Position numbers and translations under genes: made by a program
Origin: Paracholeplasma manati
Lineage (GTDB): Bacteria; Bacillota_I; Bacilli_A; Acholeplasmatales; UBA5453
Assembly (NCBI RefSeq): GCF_025742995.1
Contig: NZ_JAOVQM010000003.1
Span: forward strand, 1 to 64,000
Reading direction: 5' to 3'
DNA: 64,000 bases
Shown: in pieces, positions 3,617 through 13,341 of the stretch
Layout: each line of letters opens with the position of its first letter
Numbering within the stretch: position 1 is the stretch's first letter
The notes under the pieces: generated by a model
Databases searched by the model: none
The model's input: the letters and a program-made list of their open reading frames with translations, nothing else
What the model was told of the DNA's origin: nothing

Positions 3617-4762
3617 ATGGATGTTAAGAAAACAGGCACATTATTAAAGTCACTAAGATTATCAAAAGGGTATACTCAACAACAAGTAGCAGACGTGTTA
3701 CTGGTTAGTCCAAAAACCATATCAAAATGGGAAAATGGTGATGGACTTCCAGACATCTCAATTATTACAGCAGTAGCAGATTTGTATGAAGTCAGTGTAG
3801 ACACTTTACTCAGAGGTAAAATAACAGAAGAGACGACGATTCAACCTGCAAAGACGCATCGAATTAATCAAATGCTTGCGTACAAACTTTTTAGCAAGCT
3901 GATGTTATTTTTCTATATATCATTGGGTATAAATTTGTTCGGTATCATTTTAGGTGTTATTTTGTACGGTTCCATGTTCTATTTATCCATTGTTATTGTG
4001 AGTTTATTCTTTATCATCAGCATTATTACATTTGTTTTGGGATATGTCCACTATCAAAATATGCGAGAAATGAGCGATGATGACAATATAAACTGTGCAT
4101 ACGATCTAAATAAAACAAAAGTTCGTAGATTAATTTGGTGGATCGTACTAATTGATACAATTATCTTTTATGCACTTCTGATTGGATTCGTTTCATGGAG
4201 CAATATGTTCATATTTCAATTTCTACAGGGATTCATCATTGAAGGACCGATTTTGTTAATACTATTTGTTTATAGTTCTAGAATTCTCTCGAAAACACTC
4301 AATGAACAAACTCTAGCATGGAATAAATTTTTAAGGACATCATTATTCTTTCTAATTTTGCTGATAATATTTTGTGGATTTCAATCCAGTTTTAAGTATT
4401 CAGAAATAATCGATGGAGAACTTTATAATACCATTATGGACGGGAATCTAAATTATTATCTAATGATATTTTTCTATCCGAATTTTTACATCTTTAGAGG
4501 GGTAGCTTTATTGTTTTTAATACTATCAGGCTTATTCGTTTTCCATTTTAACAAGAAAAATAAGAATAAGTTAGCATATATCCTACTATTGATAATAAGT
4601 TTACCAATAGGATATTTTGTGAGTGCTGATTTAAACCATTTAGCAAGAATAACACTACATTACAATGATGTAATGATTAGTTATCAGTTCATTTACTATG
4701 TAGTTATATTCTTTATAGTAAGTAGTAAACTCAATAAAATGGTTGATAATCAAACAATTTAA
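3617..4762 (+). CDS. XRE-family regulator with polytopic membrane domain
   Basis: 381 residues. Residues 1-65 form a Cro/C1-type helix-turn-helix (GYTQQQVADVLLVSPKTISKWE is the recognition region). After a linker there are roughly seven hydrophobic helices (about 90-375: LFGIILGVILYGSMFYLSIV, FFLILLIIFCGF, YYVVIFFIVSS). This architecture, a DNA-binding head fused to a membrane sensor, suggests response to an envelope or lipid signal. It starts 13 bases after a GGAGG at 3604-3608. A strong terminator follows, so it is monocistronic. It is the first gene of the A+T-rich accessory stretch and could regulate itself or that stretch. Its ligand and targets are unknown. Confidence 0.8.
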   Translation: MDVKKTGTLLKSLRLSKGYTQQQVADVLLVSPKTISKWENGDGLPDISIITAVADLYEVSVDTLLRGKITEETTIQPAKTHRINQMLAYKLFSKLMLFFYISLGINLFGIILGVILYGSMFYLSIVIVSLFFIISIITFVLGYVHYQNMREMSDDDNINCAYDLNKTKVRRLIWWIVLIDTIIFYALLIGFVSWSNMFIFQFLQGFIIEGPILLILFVYSSRILSKTLNEQTLAWNKFLRTSLFFLILLIIFCGFQSSFKYSEIIDGELYNTIMDGNLNYYLMIFFYPNFYIFRGVALLFLILSGLFVFHFNKKNKNKLAYILLLIISLPIGYFVSADLNHLARITLHYNDVMISYQFIYYVVIFFIVSSKLNKMVDNQTI

Positions 4763-4769
4763 TGAAAAT

Positions 4770-4812
4770 AACCTGTATTTTTTTGGCCAATCCATAGAAA
4801 TACAGGTTTTTC
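4770..4812 (+). terminator. rho-independent terminator after the XRE regulator
   Basis: AACCTGTATTT (4770-4780) pairs perfectly with AAATACAGGTT (4798-4808) across a 17-base loop, followed by a T-rich run. Confidence 0.75.
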
Positions 4813-4866
4813 TTTGAATTTATGTATATTGATTAAATGTCGTAACGCATTTATTACAAAAAAAGG

Positions 4867-4908: not shown

Positions 4909-5274
4909 ATGTGTATTTTTTGTGAACGAAAAGACAAGAAGATCATTTTTGAAAACGAGTATATTTACGTCATATATGATGGATTTCCAGTTAATCCTGG
5001 ACATACACTCATCATTACAAAAAGACATATCTCAAACTACTTCGAATTATCTAAATCAGAAAAAGAAGCCATTGATGAAGCATTAATCATTATGAAATCG
5101 AAATTGGATAATGAATTTCATCCAGATGGTTATAATATCGGAATCAACAACGGTTTAGCAGCAGGCCAAACCATCATGCATCTACATGTCCATTTAATCC
5201 CTAGATATCAAGGTGATATGGAGAATCCACGTGGAGGAGTACGAGGTGTCATTCCTCAGAAGCAGGTTTATTAA
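4909..5274 (+). CDS. HIT-family nucleotide hydrolase/transferase
   Basis: 121 residues, near the usual size of single-domain HIT (HINT/Fhit-like) proteins. It carries the catalytic His-triad signature HLHVHLIPRY near residue 100 and the family N-terminus CIFCERKDKK. HIT enzymes hydrolyse nucleoside phosphoramidates or dinucleoside polyphosphates. The start follows TTTGGAGG. Its stop overlaps the start of the HNH gene (TAATG), so the two are translationally coupled. This suggests a joint role with a nuclease, possibly nucleotide-signal turnover, rather than plain housekeeping. A housekeeping protein that happens to lead the operon is the alternative. Confidence 0.88.
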   Translation: MCIFCERKDKKIIFENEYIYVIYDGFPVNPGHTLIITKRHISNYFELSKSEKEAIDEALIIMKSKLDNEFHPDGYNIGINNGLAAGQTIMHLHVHLIPRYQGDMENPRGGVRGVIPQKQVY

Positions 5275-6233
5275 TGGATAGCTACATTAAAAAATGGTTT
5301 GATATCTTAAATGGAATGTCTAATGACAATACGTATAAATTAGCTTGGGGCAGGGCTATCATCGAATGCATTTCAACCAATCAAGGTAGTGAAGTTGGTG
5401 CTAATTACCGAATCCATTTTGATGAGATTGCGAGAAATATGATGAAGTACTATTGGAATCAAACTTTCTTTTTCGGATTGAAACAAAGTGCTAGTCATGA
5501 GTATCCGCCAGTGGTTTTACAATTAACAAATGATTTGATTAATCACTATAAAAATATAGAATCAAATATACCTGTATGGTTCGATAAAGCGATTCATAAA
5601 ATTGATGATAAAATTGTTGAACACACGATAAGAAGCATTTCAACCGTATTAACTCAAAATGTGTCATGGCGTTTTATGAATATAGACCATGGTGTAATTT
5701 CAGTATATGACCTCAATATAAAAAATAGATACATTGAAATCGGATTAGAAGATTCAAAATTACTCATTTCATATAGCGAAGTTTTAACACAGTTGTTTAA
5801 TTATAAATGGGCTCAATTACTGGAAAAATACAATACACAACCACGTATTGTTTCGAAAGTAAAAGGCTCATCAGACAATAAGTTGAAACGCAATAATTTA
5901 GCCAAATACAAAGATATTTTAATGATGCTTTACAAAGATGATATTCGAGATTTTTATACCGATGAAATTATCAGTACAGATGACATATCCATTGATCACT
6001 TTATTCCATGGTCTTATATGTATTCAGATGATTTATGGAATTTGGTTATTACATCGAAATCCAATAATAGTTCAAAATCCAATCGTCCTCCGAAGGATGA
6101 CTATATCGCGAAACTTGAGGAAAGAAACAAGCAATTGTTAGAGGTCATACAAGATCCGAAGCAAATAGAAGAATTGATGGAATCATTGGAGCATCACTAT
6201 GTTACTAAGTTCTATCAATCATTGATATCATAA
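5274..6233 (+). CDS. HNH endonuclease, candidate restriction nuclease
   Basis: 319 residues. The C-terminal third contains an HNH (beta-beta-alpha-metal) motif: SIDHFIPWSY with Asp241-His242, DLWNLV with Asn256, then SKSNNSSKSNRPP, the N and K-rich end of the motif seen in predicted restriction HNH proteins. The N-terminal ~200 residues have no motif I recognise and are probably the specificity or partner-binding part. The ATG overlaps the HIT stop by one base (TAATG). The winged-helix gene follows after 14 bases behind AAGGAG. The operon order suggests a split restriction module in which a separate small protein reads the DNA. No methyltransferase is adjacent. Confidence 0.82.
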   Translation: MDSYIKKWFDILNGMSNDNTYKLAWGRAIIECISTNQGSEVGANYRIHFDEIARNMMKYYWNQTFFFGLKQSASHEYPPVVLQLTNDLINHYKNIESNIPVWFDKAIHKIDDKIVEHTIRSISTVLTQNVSWRFMNIDHGVISVYDLNIKNRYIEIGLEDSKLLISYSEVLTQLFNYKWAQLLEKYNTQPRIVSKVKGSSDNKLKRNNLAKYKDILMMLYKDDIRDFYTDEIISTDDISIDHFIPWSYMYSDDLWNLVITSKSNNSSKSNRPPKDDYIAKLEERNKQLLEVIQDPKQIEELMESLEHHYVTKFYQSLIS

Positions 6234-6247
6234 GGAGTGATTTGAAT

Positions 6248-6472
6248 ATGAAAGACTTAAAAGGTTGGAATTTACTTGTTTATGACGTAATAGTGAAAAA
6301 TTTTGGTTATAGAGTATTTTCTCTAAACGATATTTATCAATTTGAAGACTATTTTAAACTATATTATCCGAACAACCATTTTATTCAAGACAAAATACGG
6401 CAAATACTCCAGGTCCTGAGAGATAAAGGAATGTTGGAGTTTGTTAATGAAGGTCATTATAAGTTAATATAA
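6248..6472 (+). CDS. stand-alone DpnI-type winged-helix (G6mATC reader) protein
   Basis: 74 residues. The sequence matches, along its whole length, the C-terminal winged-helix domain of restriction enzyme DpnI (Dam-replacing family). Conserved landmarks, as I recall the DpnI sequence, are GW at the start, F(S/T)LxDxYxFE in the middle, then NNHxIxxKIRQxLQxLRDK and the final EF...G.YK. In DpnI this domain binds methylated GATC independently of the nuclease domain. Here it stands alone with no nuclease attached. An upstream in-frame TTG at 6242 would add two residues, but AAGGAG at 6232-6237 is better spaced for the ATG. It is co-transcribed with the HNH gene just before it. Likely roles are targeting subunit of the HNH enzyme, or a methylation-sensing repressor. 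Confidence 0.8.
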   Translation: MKDLKGWNLLVYDVIVKNFGYRVFSLNDIYQFEDYFKLYYPNNHFIQDKIRQILQVLRDKGMLEFVNEGHYKLI

Positions 6473-6516
6473 TCAAATCTACTATTCAAGATATGATTTA
6501 ATTGGATATTAAAGTG

Positions 6517-6541
6517 AATCATGCAATCGCATGATTTTTTT
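6517..6541 (+). terminator. terminator of the HIT-HNH-wHTH operon
   Basis: AATCATGC-AATC-GCATGATT, a perfect 8-bp stem, followed by TTTTT. Confidence 0.85.
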
Positions 6542-6556
6542 ACTTTAATAGTGATC

Positions 6557-6585
6557 TTGACATATATATTAAATCGTGATCTAAT
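6557..6585 (+). promoter_or_regulatory. promoter of the AIPR gene with flanking GTGATCT repeats
   Basis: TTGACA (6557-6562), 17-base spacer, TCTAAT (6580-6585): a near-consensus promoter 33 bases before the start. GTGATCT occurs directly repeated at 6551-6557 and 6576-6582, 25 bases apart, touching the -35 and -10 boxes respectively. Each copy contains a GATC. Confidence 0.65.
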
Positions 6586-6617
6586 TAAATTATAGAACAT
6601 AATATGTGAGGTTGCAT

Positions 6618-8399
6618 ATGGATAAAAAAATGAATGATTTAATTGAAGAATTCAAGAGTAGGTATTATCCTACCATAGAGATTACTAATGAAAAGATATT
6701 TACCGCTTTTTGTATTAAATATTTTTTTTATGATGATATTTTTTCAGCAGATGAAACCTTAGAATATATTGTAGATGGTGCAAATGATGGCGGAATTGAT
6801 GCAATATTCACTGATTCTTATAGCGAAAATAATGATTTGATTATTATTCAATCGAAATATTATGATAGTACCAAACTAAGTGTTAAAGACGTAGAATCAG
6901 AGATACACAAAATATTAAAAACACTAAAAGATTTAAAGAAAAGAAACGACACTAACTATAAAAAAGAATTGGTTCAGTCGTATTTAGACTGTACAGAAAA
7001 TACGAATGAAGATTCACAAATAAAAATATATATTTTCACTTCATTCGAAGTAAAAGATAATAATACAAAGAATGGCTATTTAAAAGAGATAAAAAAACTA
7101 GAAACTGAAAACTATTCAATTGATATTTTTTTTGGCAGAGATATAATTGAACAAGTTGTACTTATCGATACAGGTAAATTTTCAGTACCTAAGGCGAAAA
7201 TGAAGATTGATAAAGTCGATAATTTTTTATCCTATGGTGATTCCATTATTGTCAATGCCTCTGCTCAATCAATTAATGAATTGTTTAAAAAATACCACAA
7301 CAAAGGGTTGTTAGCCTCAAACTTAAGATACTATATTAAGGACAAAAAGGTCGATAAAGGAATTAATCAGACCATTAAAAATGAGCCTGATAACTTTTGG
7401 TATTTCAATAATGGTATTATTATTGTCTCTTCTAACTATGAAATCAATTCAAAAGAAATTGTTTTATATGATTTTTCAATAGTTAATGGAGGACAAACTA
7501 CGGCACTTATTGGGCAAATAAACTTTTCACAAAATCAAGATTTCTTTGTGCAGGTTAAAATAATTAAAACTGTTGGTGAAACAGAAAAGGATCAAGAAAT
7601 ATTCATTTTGAAAGTTGCTGAATCCTCTAACTTACAAAAAGCAATAAAAGATAAAGATTTAATCTCTAATAAGATGGAGCAACTTAAACTTAAAAGCGAA
7701 TTATCGAAACTTGGAATCTATTATGTACTCAAGAGAGGTGAATTCATCGAGAAAAAATACAATTCTTTTGTGAAAGCTAATAGTGATATGATAGGAAAAT
7801 TGATAATGGCATCAATATTGCAAATGCCCGGAACATCTCGATCAGGTACAAAAAAAATTTATTCAGAAGATTACTATCATCGCATTTTCCCTGATGAACC
7901 TAGGACTCTACTTGCAAATCAGCTTGTTCAATTGAAAAATCATTATAATCAATATAAAAAGAATAAAAAGAGTTTCTCATCTGAGGATAAAATCTCTATT
8001 TTAGCAAATGGAGAACTACATTTTATATCGATTTTTACACTATTAACTTCAGCAACAAGGGAGTTTATTAAAGAACAGGATTATAAAAAACAAGCATTTG
8101 ACCAGAGAAAAGAATATTTATACACAAAACTTAAGCGGTATGAGAAGATATACGAAAAATCACTTGATGATGAAACAGAGATAACTTATAAAGTATTTGA
8201 CATAATATTAGATGAAATTCTTACTTATGTTTATCGCATTGAGAAAAAATCAAGGGAGCAAAACAGGGAAACTATAACAGTCGCAAATTATTTAAAATTA
8301 GACTCTGTCTATTACAACGACATTGTTCCGAGAGCATTTGAAGTTCTTCAAGAAAACGAATTATTAATGGAATATTTAATAAAATTCAATAATGTTTGA
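6618..8399 (+). CDS. AIPR abortive-infection protein with nuclease-like N-terminus
   Basis: 593 residues from the ATG at 6618. A GTG at 6606 is in frame, but GAGG at 6608-6611 serves the ATG. The central block NLRYYIKDKKVDKGINQTI...DNFWYFNNGIII and FSIVNGGQTT is diagnostic of the AIPR family (abortive infection phage resistance), often found in defence loci. The N-terminal ~170 residues contain GGIDAIF with Asp61 and IIIQSKYY with Gln78-x-Lys80, the pattern of a PD-(D/E)XK nuclease core. It is monocistronic with its own strong promoter and terminator. It stops with TGA, which supports the standard genetic code. The A+T-rich codon use matches the neighbours to either side. Mechanism of this family is not well established. 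Confidence 0.85.
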   Translation: MDKKMNDLIEEFKSRYYPTIEITNEKIFTAFCIKYFFYDDIFSADETLEYIVDGANDGGIDAIFTDSYSENNDLIIIQSKYYDSTKLSVKDVESEIHKILKTLKDLKKRNDTNYKKELVQSYLDCTENTNEDSQIKIYIFTSFEVKDNNTKNGYLKEIKKLETENYSIDIFFGRDIIEQVVLIDTGKFSVPKAKMKIDKVDNFLSYGDSIIVNASAQSINELFKKYHNKGLLASNLRYYIKDKKVDKGINQTIKNEPDNFWYFNNGIIIVSSNYEINSKEIVLYDFSIVNGGQTTALIGQINFSQNQDFFVQVKIIKTVGETEKDQEIFILKVAESSNLQKAIKDKDLISNKMEQLKLKSELSKLGIYYVLKRGEFIEKKYNSFVKANSDMIGKLIMASILQMPGTSRSGTKKIYSEDYYHRIFPDEPRTLLANQLVQLKNHYNQYKKNKKSFSSEDKISILANGELHFISIFTLLTSATREFIKEQDYKKQAFDQRKEYLYTKLKRYEKIYEKSLDDETEITYKVFDIILDEILTYVYRIEKKSREQNRETITVANYLKLDSVYYNDIVPRAFEVLQENELLMEYLIKFNNV

Positions 8400-8410
8400 G
8401 TTTACACTAA

Positions 8411-8436
8411 AAGGACATTTTTTAATGTTCTTTTTT
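8411..8436 (+). terminator. terminator after the AIPR gene
   Basis: AAGGACATT / AATGTTCTT stem (one G-T pair, T-only loop) followed by six T. Confidence 0.75.
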
Positions 8437-8485
8437 ACGTGATAATACACTACTATATTTATGTATGATAATATTCTCAACGAAA

Positions 8486-8544: not shown

Positions 8545-11500
8545 ATGATTGGATTCATAGACACTGAAATAAGTAAAAATAAAGTGGTTTCAGATATTGG
8601 ATGTATCAAAGAAAATGGTGAAATACTACACACCAAGAGCATTCAAGAACTGATTAAATTCACGAAGAAAGTAGATTTTTTTTGCGGTCACAATTTCGTT
8701 TCACACGACTTTATTCACCTAAACCGGATATTACCTCGAAAGTTTATCCCCTTAGAAACTACTATAGACACCTTGTATCTCTCAGCTTTATTGTTCCCAG
8801 AAAGACCATATCATCATTTGGTTAAAAACGATAAACTCGATAGTGATTCACTGAATAACCCACTGAATGACGCTCGAAACGCACAAATTTTATTTATGGA
8901 TGAAGTTGATGCATTCAATCGACTTGATGATACGCTAAAACAAATCTATTATTCGATATTAAAAGATGAACCTGGATTTTCCGGTTTTTTCAAACATATG
9001 AAATACAATCCTAAAGTGCGTAATCTTGTGGAACTAATTCAGTTATACTTTGGAGACAAAGTCTGTCACAATATCGACATCAACGCTTTGCTGAAAGAAG
9101 TTAGAGTCGAATTGGCATATTGCTTATCATTAATTACGACGAGCGAAGCAGATTCACTGATGCCTGGGTGGGTTTTAATGAACTATCCAAAAGTTGAACC
9201 CTTAATGATCAAACTTAGAAGCACACCGTGCAGACAAGGTTGTGACTATTGTAATACCCATTTAGATGCAAAACACGCCCTGAAACGCTTTTTCGGTTAT
9301 GAGGACTTTAGGAAATATAATGATTTACCACTTCAAGAACAAGCGGTTAAATCCGCAATCAAAAATGAATCTTTGATTGCTGTTTTTCCTACCGGTGGTG
9401 GGAAATCATTAACGTATCAATTACCAGCACTCTTAAGTAGAGAAAATACCAGAGGGTTAACAGTTGTTATTTCACCATTACAATCACTGATGAAAGATCA
9501 AGTAGATAATTTAGAAGACAATTCGATTGTTTCAGCGGTTGCGATTAGTGGCTTGCTCGACCCTATACAACGAAAAGAAGCTATTGAGAGAGTTGAAAGT
9601 GGATTAGCGGGCATTCTATATATTGCTCCAGAATCTCTTCGGTCAAAAACGATTGAAAGATTATTAATTAAAAGACATGTAACGAGATTTGTCATAGATG
9701 AAGCACACTGTTTTTCTTCTTGGGGTCACGATTTCAGGGTTGATTATCTATATATTGGAAAGTTCATCAAACATATTCAAGAAGTGAAAGGAAATAAAAC
9801 TTCAATCCCTGTTTCCTGTTTTACGGCTACAGCAAAGAAAAACGTCATCGAAGATATATCGAATTATTTTAAAGAACACTTAAACTTAGATATGAAAATA
9901 TACCAGACATCATCACGAAGAACCAATCTAGCTTACAAAGTGATTGATGTCACAGACGACGAAGAAAAATACCAAAAACTGAGAAGTATCATAGAACAAG
10001 AAAATTGTCCAACCATCATTTATGCTTCGAGAACGAAAATTGTAGATTCACTGTATGAGCGGATGAAAAAGGATCATTTTTCTGTTTCTCGTTTTCATGG
10101 CAGCATGGAGAAAGATGCAAAAGTAGAAGAGCAGGATAAGTTCATGAAGGGGATAAACCCAATCATGATCGCAACCTCAGCGTTTGGAATGGGTGTAGAC
10201 AAGAAAGATATCGGGTGTGTCATTCATTATCAAATTTCTAGTTCCCTTGAAGATTATGTACAAGAATCTGGTAGAGCTGGTCGGGATGAACACATTCATG
10301 CACAGTGCTATATTCTATACAATGAGCAAGATTTAAACGGTCATTTTGAATTGTTAAATCGTAGCAAACTCAACCTTAAAGAAATCCAACAAATATGGAA
10401 AGCTGTCAAAGAACTAACAAAAGTGAGGGAGAGTATTTCACAATCAGCGCTTGAAATAGCTAGAATCGCTGGATGGGATGAGAGCATACATGACTTGGAA
10501 ACACGAGTAACCACAGCGGTCGCAACACTTGAAGAAACTGGATATTTGTTGCGCGGACAAAATTCACCTCGTGTTTTTGCCAATAGTATTATGGCTAAAA
10601 CGATGGCAGATGCTGCCAAAAAAATCGATGAATCAGAATTGATTCCTGAAACTGAGAAATCTTTAACAAAGCGAATTATAAAGCTCTTAATATCAAGTCA
10701 GAGTAAAAACAAAGGTGCAGATGGCGAAGCGGAATCTAGAGTAGATTACATTGCTGAAAATTTAGGTGTAGAAAAACATTTAGTATTAAAATCGATTAAC
10801 CATCTACGTGAAATTCAACTATTAGCAGACCATAAAGACTTATCGGCTTTTTTGAAACGAACAAAAGGGTCTAGTACGGTTCAAAAAAGTTTGGATAATC
10901 AAGTTGAACTCATTCAATATATATTAAGCGTTTTATCACCAGATCAAAAATTTTATAATCTAAAAGATCTCAATGACCATGCATTAAACAGTGGTATTGA
11001 TTCCAATCTCAAACAAGTTAGAGGTATCATAAACTATTTTGCGATTAAAAAATGGATTGATTTAAAGAAAAACGGGAAAGACAATGTTTCGATTGAGTTC
11101 AACCAAAAACCTGAATATATCAAAGAGTTGATTCAAAAAAATGCGGCTATTTCGAGTATCATTATTAATTATTTATATCGATTGATGAGTGAGCAAAAAA
11201 GCAATACTGAATTCAGCACTGTTGTGTTTTCAGTACTTGAGCTTAAACAATTCTATGATAATAGCAAGGGAATGCTTGACTATAACGTTAACTTAGACGA
11301 TATAGAAGATGCACTATTTTTCATGCAACGTAGTGGAATCATTACGATTGAAGGCGGATTTATGGTTATTTATAGTCCGCTATATATTGAAAGAATTGAA
11401 AAAAATCCGCATAAACAATTCACGAAAACCGATTATGAACAATTGGATTCCTTTTATCAAAGTAGAAGAGAACAAGTACATATCGTTGGTGAATATGCCA

Positions 11501-13341
11501 GCAAAATGATTAAAAACTATCAAGAAGCATTGTTGTTTGTCGACGATTATTTTCAATACGAATTTAACGAATTTTTAGGCAAATACTTTAAAGGTGATCG
11601 TAAGAAAGATATCGAAAGAAGCATGACACCAGCCAAGTTTAAAGAACTTTTTGGATCACTGTCACCTGAACAATTGGCTGTGATCAAAGACAAAGATCAT
11701 AATCGAATTGTTGTTGCAGCTGGACCTGGTAGTGGGAAAACAAAGCTTTTAGTACATAAATTAGCATCGATTTTGTATACAGAGGACATTCGAACAGAGC
11801 AGTTGATGATGCTAACTTTTTCAAGAGCATCGGTCGGAGAATTTAAAGATAGACTATACAAACTCATCGGTGAGGCATCATATTTCGTTGATATAATGAC
11901 GTTTCACTCATTTTGTTTTGACATTTTAGGTCGAGTTGGATCGATTGATAAAACCGAAGGTATCGTTCAAAGTGCTGTTGAAAACATACGTTCAGGCGAT
12001 GTTGATCCTTCAAAGATTACTAAAATGGTATTGGTGATTGATGAAGCACAGGATATGGACCAAAATGAGTATGATTTAATCAATGAAATCATCGAGTTTA
12101 ATGAAAATATTCGAATTATCGCGGTTGGTGATGATGATCAAAACATTTATGAGTTTAGAGGTTCTAACTCGAAGTATTTCAAGGAATTAATGACAGATGA
12201 TGGTGCATTTTATGAATTATCAACGAATTATAGAAGTAAGAATAATTTGGTCACATTTACCAATCAATTCGTAAATTTCATACCTAATCGAATCAAAAAT
12301 AACCCTATTGTAGCATATACAAAAGATAATGGCCGAATTGAAGTCATTAGACATAGAACATCCGAAAATTTAATTGTCGGTATCGTCGAACAAGTCATGT
12401 TAGAGAATCCTCCAGGCAGAACTTGTATTATTACATGGAAGAACGAACAGGCATTACATGCGCTCGGTATACTTAACCTCAAAGGAATTTCAGCCAATCT
12501 AATTCAAAACAATGAAAGACTTAAAGTATTCAGTCTGTATGAAATTAGAGTTTTCATGTCATTTTTTTCCAATGATATCCATGAAGGTATGGTGTCCAAT
12601 GATACTTGGAAAAATGCGGTTATTAGATTTGATGATATCTTCAAAGATACATCTAACTACAAGATGTGCATCAGAATTATGAGAGCTTTCAGAAATGAGT
12701 ATAAAACAGCATTCTATTATTCAGATTTAGAGTCCTTCATTTTTGAAACCAATCTATCGGATTATGTTGAAGATGCACCAGTTATGGTATCAACTTTTCA
12801 CAAAACCAAGGGCAAAGAGTTCGATAATGTTTACATCCTTGATGACAATCTTTGGTTAAATGACGAGCAAAAGCGAGCGATGTACGTAGGATTGACTAGG
12901 GCGAAGAACAATTTGATTATTCATACAGTTTCAAATATTTTCAATTATTTTAAAGCTGAAAATCTTGTTGCTTCGATTAATGAAGTCGTCTACAATAAAC
13001 CAGAACGACTCATATATCAGATTAACCATGAGGACGTTGCATTAGGATACTTTAAGTTGGTTCAAAATGCCATTAAGAAACTCAAATCAGGTGATACGTT
13101 AACAATCATTGATGATGTGATGGTTAAGGATGAACGCAAAATTCTCAAATTATCTAAGAAATATAGTGATCGTGTTAGAGAATTGCTTGATAGTGGTTAT
13201 TCATTAACTAAGGCCATTGTAAAATTCATGGTTTATTGGTGGGATAAAGAAGAAGAAAAAGATTACTTGATTGTATTACCAGAATTGACTTTTGATTTCA
13301 ATATGAATAAAGAGGAAAGTCCAACAGAATCTCGAGAATAA
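8545..13341 (+). CDS. exonuclease-RecQ-UvrD triple fusion helicase
   Basis: 1598 residues, far longer than RecQ (~600) or UvrD (~720). Residues 1-135 resemble a DEDD 3'-5' exonuclease (GFIDTEIS, GHNFVSHDF, NNPLNDARNA; the third-motif His is Asn). A cysteine cluster CRQGCDYC begins at Cys229. RecQ-type SF2 helicase spans ~250-610: FPTGGGKS with Lys287, DEAHCFSSWGHDFR from 385, FTATA, QESGRAGRD. A long winged-helix-like linker follows. A UvrD-type SF1A helicase covers ~1045-1500: GPGSGKTK with Lys1065, DEAQDMDQ from 1166, GDDDQNIYEFRG, STFHKTKGKEF, YVGLTRAK. GGAGTG precedes the ATG. All motor motifs look intact, so one chain may unwind with both polarities and degrade DNA. A role in phage defence or in recombination are the two readings. 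Confidence 0.9.
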   Translation: MIGFIDTEISKNKVVSDIGCIKENGEILHTKSIQELIKFTKKVDFFCGHNFVSHDFIHLNRILPRKFIPLETTIDTLYLSALLFPERPYHHLVKNDKLDSDSLNNPLNDARNAQILFMDEVDAFNRLDDTLKQIYYSILKDEPGFSGFFKHMKYNPKVRNLVELIQLYFGDKVCHNIDINALLKEVRVELAYCLSLITTSEADSLMPGWVLMNYPKVEPLMIKLRSTPCRQGCDYCNTHLDAKHALKRFFGYEDFRKYNDLPLQEQAVKSAIKNESLIAVFPTGGGKSLTYQLPALLSRENTRGLTVVISPLQSLMKDQVDNLEDNSIVSAVAISGLLDPIQRKEAIERVESGLAGILYIAPESLRSKTIERLLIKRHVTRFVIDEAHCFSSWGHDFRVDYLYIGKFIKHIQEVKGNKTSIPVSCFTATAKKNVIEDISNYFKEHLNLDMKIYQTSSRRTNLAYKVIDVTDDEEKYQKLRSIIEQENCPTIIYASRTKIVDSLYERMKKDHFSVSRFHGSMEKDAKVEEQDKFMKGINPIMIATSAFGMGVDKKDIGCVIHYQISSSLEDYVQESGRAGRDEHIHAQCYILYNEQDLNGHFELLNRSKLNLKEIQQIWKAVKELTKVRESISQSALEIARIAGWDESIHDLETRVTTAVATLEETGYLLRGQNSPRVFANSIMAKTMADAAKKIDESELIPETEKSLTKRIIKLLISSQSKNKGADGEAESRVDYIAENLGVEKHLVLKSINHLREIQLLADHKDLSAFLKRTKGSSTVQKSLDNQVELIQYILSVLSPDQKFYNLKDLNDHALNSGIDSNLKQVRGIINYFAIKKWIDLKKNGKDNVSIEFNQKPEYIKELIQKNAAISSIIINYLYRLMSEQKSNTEFSTVVFSVLELKQFYDNSKGMLDYNVNLDDIEDALFFMQRSGIITIEGGFMVIYSPLYIERIEKNPHKQFTKTDYEQLDSFYQSRREQVHIVGEYASKMIKNYQEALLFVDDYFQYEFNEFLGKYFKGDRKKDIERSMTPAKFKELFGSLSPEQLAVIKDKDHNRIVVAAGPGSGKTKLLVHKLASILYTEDIRTEQLMMLTFSRASVGEFKDRLYKLIGEASYFVDIMTFHSFCFDILGRVGSIDKTEGIVQSAVENIRSGDVDPSKITKMVLVIDEAQDMDQNEYDLINEIIEFNENIRIIAVGDDDQNIYEFRGSNSKYFKELMTDDGAFYELSTNYRSKNNLVTFTNQFVNFIPNRIKNNPIVAYTKDNGRIEVIRHRTSENLIVGIVEQVMLENPPGRTCIITWKNEQALHALGILNLKGISANLIQNNERLKVFSLYEIRVFMSFFSNDIHEGMVSNDTWKNAVIRFDDIFKDTSNYKMCIRIMRAFRNEYKTAFYYSDLESFIFETNLSDYVEDAPVMVSTFHKTKGKEFDNVYILDDNLWLNDEQKRAMYVGLTRAKNNLIIHTVSNIFNYFKAENLVASINEVVYNKPERLIYQINHEDVALGYFKLVQNAIKKLKSGDTLTIIDDVMVKDERKILKLSKKYSDRVRELLDSGYSLTKAIVKFMVYWWDKEEEKDYLIVLPELTFDFNMNKEESPTESRE

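Follow-up and report, generated by a model that had tools for sequence, protein, structure and literature searches.

In the window (the whole 64,000-nucleotide stretch of DNA that was analyzed), a His-triad (HIT) gene, an HNH gene and a RecQ/UvrD helicase gene would form the fixed frame of a putative modular defence locus. This frame may surround a slot whose content, serving modification-dependent (type IV) restriction, is exchangeable. In it a foreign 2.2-kb block has swapped an endonuclease, probably the ancestral content, for a bare DpnI-type winged helix (wH) and an AIPR/AbiU protein, and the bare wH would recruit a separate effector. We give this explanation, taken as a whole, a probability of about one half. 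Protein families, fold, sister architecture, block borders, composition and the methylase search were computed here, and the features are as follows.

4771..4812, + strand: terminator-like hairpin upstream of the HIT-HNH-wH unit (fold energy -19.2 kcal/mol, z -6.3 for 4762-4815)
4909..5274, + strand: HIT protein, 121 aa, the genome's second HIT (PF01230, 2.9e-24)
5274..6233, + strand: HNH_4 (Cas9-like HNH) protein, 319 aa, with a conserved N-terminal domain (PF13395, 4e-12)
6248..6472, + strand: free-standing DpnI_C winged helix, 74 aa (PF17726, 5.5e-24; ATG start, TTG at 6242 as the alternative)
6274..8483, no strand: replacement block, wH body plus AIPR (GC 27.3%; borders from blastn identity)
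6516..6537, + strand: terminator-like hairpin closing the HIT-HNH-wH unit (z -4.2 for 6470-6560)
6621..8399, + strand: AIPR/AbiU-type protein, 592 aa (PF10592, 7.9e-32; PADLOC AbiU, 9.6e-34)
8545..13341, + strand: 1598-aa helicase, RecQ + UvrD (TIGR00614 recQ_fam, 5.4e-81; UvrD, 1.7e-28)

The HIT-HNH-wH unit

The three packed genes of the original prediction are all present as open reading frames and form one tight unit, in which the TAATG proposed to couple HIT to HNH is a real overlap at 5272-5276 and a gap of 14 bases leads from HNH to the wH. The scan for the closing hairpin gave one site in the sequence against 0.9 expected in shuffles.

The 74-aa protein had been said to match only the C-terminal domain of DpnI, and a search of that family bore this out far beyond chance: residues 5-72 match PF17726 (DpnI_C) at 5.5e-24, with 84.6 bits against a curated cut-off of 23, and sequence comparison with DpnI itself gives 2.2e-10. 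The AF2 model (pLDDT 92.7) has DpnI 4kyw as its best structural match, with an rmsd of 1.3 over 73 residues and the next protein at Z 9.1, and Foldseek gives a TM of 0.85 against the same entry; as modelled, the protein has the DpnI wH fold. Its common ground with the C-terminal domain of DpnI (4kyw, 4esj; PMC4117772) comprises this fold (Z 13.2), 36-40% identity and the DNA-contact residues K229 and R231, while it differs from DpnI in being free-standing, with no PD-(D/E)XK domain. The equivalents K49 and R51, placed with a PDB chain offset of 3 from DpnI numbering that was fixed by residue identity, are invariant in the family alignment together with N43 and Q52, so the missing DpnI pocket that would have refuted the prediction was not seen. 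Replacing K229 or R231 in DpnI weakens DNA binding (PMC4117772). We infer that the 74-aa wH most likely still binds 6mA-methylated GATC.

The small protein was also correctly described as having no nuclease of its own. DpnI_C was its sole match, the PF06044 PD-(D/E)XK catalytic domain was not found in it, no GIY-YIG (T5orf172) domain follows it and no nuclease remnant appears in any frame of the following bases. The open reading frame is undamaged, has a good ribosome site, retains every family-invariant residue and ends right at the edge of the domain.

Both upstream proteins agree with the prediction as well. The HIT protein, a member of PF01230, has an intact triad (HLHVHLI within HLHVHLIPR, H-x-H-x-H) and is a dedicated paralogue, since a second HIT is present in each genome checked, in the window genome on contig C1. 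The HNH protein has an HNH_4 domain at residues 226-273 (Pfam) with an intact catalytic motif (D241-H242 / N256 / N265; IDHFIPW .. LWNL .. SNNSSKSN). Its N-terminal half had been called unrecognized, and residues 1-200 indeed gave no match to Pfam or PDB entries, a 17-sequence profile included; these 200 residues are strongly conserved in the family (DNTYK.AWGRA ... YYWNQ..FF.L.Q). An AF2 model of the protein from an alignment of three sequences reached a pLDDT of 34. Similarity to Cas9/IscB is confined to residues 203-299 and, unlike those proteins, in which RuvC and other effector domains surround the HNH, this 319-aa protein is without them.

Exchange in the slot between HNH and the helicase

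Three independent sister assemblies besides that of the window were compared (L002, L003/G502 and G153); G502 and G511, the L003 genome, share identical coordinates and seem to be one assembly. In all three, the slot between HIT-HNH and the RecQ-UvrD helicase holds a 193/194-aa wH::GIY-YIG fusion, giving the layout HIT-HNH-wH::GIY-YIG-(glycosylase)-RecQ/UvrD, and the GIY-YIG (T5orf172) domain of L002 matches PF10544 at 1e-16. The HNH is 97% identical to that of the window in L002 and L003/G502 and 71% identical in G153. Using blastn, the window and the sisters align at 95-96% up to position 6273, not at all in 6274-8483, and at 99.3-99.6% from 8484, which places the exchange border 25 bases inside the wH open reading frame. 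In the sister, the stretch corresponding to the block encodes the wH-GIY-YIG together with a protein of 296 aa that has an adenine-glycosylase-like domain (PF03352, 9.1e-11) and possibly a zinc ribbon. Between the sister and G153 the wH is 76% identical, matching the 72% of their HNH proteins. The window wH falls well below this, at 57% identity to the sister and 54% to G153, and is thus a newcomer. The block has a GC content of 27.3% against 37.9% for the window, within the lowest 0.2% of 2.2-kb stretches, and judging from borders and composition the wH and AIPR most likely entered together in one foreign block. Because this block replaced a wH-GIY-YIG gene and brought a bare wH and AIPR, we regard the wH as exchangeable cargo and not as a fixed subunit of the HNH.

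The cargo thus replaced belongs to a known kind. Helbrecht et al. (2024) purified two wH-GIY-YIG enzymes from Acholeplasma, Ahi29725I and Apa233I, that cleave near G6mATC in Dam+ DNA and not in Dam- DNA, where cutting was seen only as a non-specific effect of Mn or of Apa233I in high concentration (PMC11037411). The sister gene shares their full architecture, while the window protein has the same wH only, with no GIY-YIG. The ancestral cargo would have been an endonuclease of the Ahi29725I/Apa233I kind, its wH binding methylated G6mATC and its GIY-YIG domain cutting nearby. After the swap, the 74-aa wH would bind 6mA-methylated GATC in incoming DNA, in a host with no detected Dam-type methylase, and, having no nuclease, would mark that DNA for a separate effector, with AIPR favoured and the HNH of the same transcription unit second. 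That a free-standing 74-aa 6mA reader targets AIPR or the HIT-coupled HNH in trans, as a genuine split methylation-directed system, we put forward tentatively, as the less probable side of an uneven question.

Several observations count against the explanation as a whole. Between the wH and AIPR lie the 6516-6537 hairpin and roughly 150 bases of spacing, and no wH was seen within 1.5 kb of any AIPR homologue except that of G147. The bare wH is known from one genome only of the order, and a broken fusion in G255 makes loss of function a real alternative. The main rival is that the bare wH is a leftover of recombination, half of a wH-GIY-YIG gene that either survived the exchange or came in with it, partnerless, functionless and bound to decay. 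The exchange border within the open reading frame would suit such an origin. DpnI_C is present in 13 of 160 genomes of the order, and among these 13 only the window genome and G255 have a short open reading frame consisting of the domain alone. We also weighed whether the short form is widespread in the order and rejected this, as the G255 gene is a fusion interrupted by an in-frame TAG, with GIY-YIG continuing in frame behind the stop; the window genome is the only one of the 13 with a bare wH and no debris. The state of the window gene speaks against a leftover: it is undamaged from ribosome site to domain edge and has no GIY-YIG debris behind it, and a wH that is 43% diverged from its sister yet undamaged implies an incoming gene under selection until recently. 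We consider the leftover unlikely, though to be taken seriously.

Bare wH genes also occur elsewhere. Four of six wH loci in viral contigs are bare open reading frames of about 71-79 aa (L149 2986-3201, L151 1868-2107, L153 2977-3210, L154 2938-3159), and DpnI_C matches of about 1e-22 were obtained for the two that we scanned, so the stand-alone wH is a real kind of gene. Two of the four adjoin ParB-like genes, one assigned to ParB_N by Pfam and the other recognized by eye, and one of the four shares its contig with an adenine methylase.

Candidate effectors and the HNH family

AIPR is at least as likely a partner of the wH as HNH, and we rate it above HNH as the effector, since it lies in the same block as the wH and its closest relative overlaps a PLD-wH gene. 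That relative, in G147, is the nearest among 295 genomes, at 44%. The AIPR domain (PF10592) scores 111.6 bits against a cut-off of 25, and the N-terminus has a weak Mrr-like nuclease motif (GID..IIIQSK; Mrr_cat 0.032, below cut-off). The protein resembles the AIPR/AbiU abortive-infection proteins and is distinguished by adjoining a bare DpnI-type wH. A literature search, mostly of open papers, found no description of AIPR with a winged helix.

The original prediction had instead described a split type IV enzyme in which the wH directs the HNH nuclease to its target and HIT has an accessory role. The shared transcription unit with its 14-base gap agrees with this, as does the HIT-HNH pair, which is real and recurs outside the genus: in G577 (family f8) a HIT that is 60% identical adjoins HNH, a second HIT lies elsewhere in the genome, and part of the Asn motif of the HNH is lost. 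Across the 34 HNH loci that we surveyed (remote members included; not all independent, and from a clade-biased sample), a wH near the HNH family was seen only in this genus and in two other genomes: G128, where HNH lies beside a GmrSD-type GmrSD_N-wH fusion, and G386, where a remote HNH member is 1.2 kb from a PLD-wH gene on the other strand. These two neighbourhoods speak for the model, but most of the 34 loci have no wH beside the HNH. In addition, the HNH is 97% unchanged in sisters whose wH already has a GIY-YIG nuclease, so a bare reader is unneeded there, and HNH and wH as two halves of one enzyme is an improbable reading. What survives of the proposed undescribed split system is the bare wH without nuclease and the real HIT-HNH pair; the link to HNH finds no support, and wH domains that read 6mA in fusions with many nucleases have already been published (PMC11037411).

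Nor is HIT the fixed nucleotide enzyme of the set. A small nucleotide hydrolase stands beside HNH in 18 of the 34 loci, HIT in 3 and MazG or a MazG-like NTP pyrophosphohydrolase in 15; 7 loci have neither of these and a SAM methyltransferase, of class I, in its place, and 9 have none. The MazG-like group reaches Pfam weakly (PRA-PH, 0.001-0.003), and its Paenibacillus members are annotated as nucleoside triphosphate pyrophosphohydrolase. Our literature search, mostly of open papers, found no description of HNH with MazG, NUDIX or HIT partners, and this pairing of HNH with nucleotide hydrolases that replace one another is apparently undescribed and could be surveyed and assayed across the wider family. 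Whatever part HIT may have here, it would be like the HIT protein ThsC of Thoeris type II (PMC8565338) in being an extra defence gene; ThsA and ThsB had no match among the five locus proteins scanned with PADLOC.

A wH reader joined to varied nucleases, HNH included, is known from PUA-wH-HNH HhiV4I and PLD-wH (PMC11037411, PMC10101028), whereas in the window HNH is encoded apart from the wH, belongs to a different HNH family (HNH_4, Cas9-like) and has a conserved N-terminal domain of its own. The novelty therefore lies mainly in the arrangement, a bare reader in a swapped slot, the wH-nuclease fusion being of a kind already known. In wH-based type IV restriction, readers and nucleases are known as fusions, and close relatives with the reader fused or bare in one slot offer a direct test of a 6mA reader in trans and of the identity of the nuclease.

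The 1598-aa helicase consists of an N-terminal stretch, probably a DEDDh exonuclease as read by eye, followed by RecQ and UvrD. It adjoins HNH also in G170 and G042 and is one gene away in G153. We rejected it as an obligate partner of HNH: the two occur together in three lineages only, and the other loci seen have no such helicase. Within the class, 14 of 386 genomes have the helicase, in most cases away from HNH.

Several further arrangements were seen in the HNH family. Seven HNH homologues (L059, L061, L062, L065, L120, L121 and L123) have partly lost the catalytic motif and conserved the N-terminal domain, and several of them share one conserved chromosomal place; perhaps they have a non-nuclease role. 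The G128 locus (L053 7682-14282) has a MazG-like gene, HNH and the 750-aa GmrSD_N-wH fusion, with a DpnM-DpnA fusion methylase 1.3 kb on. A MazG or MazG-like gene with HNH and an SLFN-g3 helicase recurs in four genomes (L051 10574-13093, L067, L124 and L056), and in L051 the helicase is GIY-YIG-fused and a NUDIX is also present.

Host methylation and GATC

No Dam-type methylase was found in the window genome (G000, 99% complete) in a search of the families PF02086 (D12) and PF01555 (N6_N4), and in the sister genomes the only match to either family was one N6_N4 in G153. A bare wH that serves as a methylation-sensing regulator, or as a mask shielding G6mATC sites, rather than in restriction would have its parallel in the viral genes beside ParB-like genes or with an adenine methylase; with no GATC methylase detected in the host, its own DNA would offer no methylated sites for sensing or shielding, and with a nuclease in the sister slot we hold this to be very improbable.

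The statistics for GATC cover the window and the loci examined. In positions 1-64000 it occurs 152 times against 386 expected (ratio 0.39), the lowest of the four-base palindromes, followed by GGCC (0.56) and GCGC (0.60). This scarcity suggests past exposure to enzymes cutting plain GATC rather than to methylation-directed ones.

Apparently intact DpnII operons, comprising a D12 methylase, an N6_N4 methylase and the DpnII nuclease, were observed in three genomes (L070 9520-14925, L072 6865-10359 and L076 9362-12824, in G147, G180 and G100), where they directly adjoin wH-GIY-YIG or AIPR + PLD-wH genes. If the wH enzymes beside DpnII read G6mATC, they would be expected to cut their own genome, unless this conflict is avoided in some way. 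A conserved open reading frame of 82-88 aa, possibly a control protein, separates DpnII from the wH (or AIPR) gene in four genomes (L070 12181-12441, L071 9653-9919, L072 9393-9656, L076 10079-10327).
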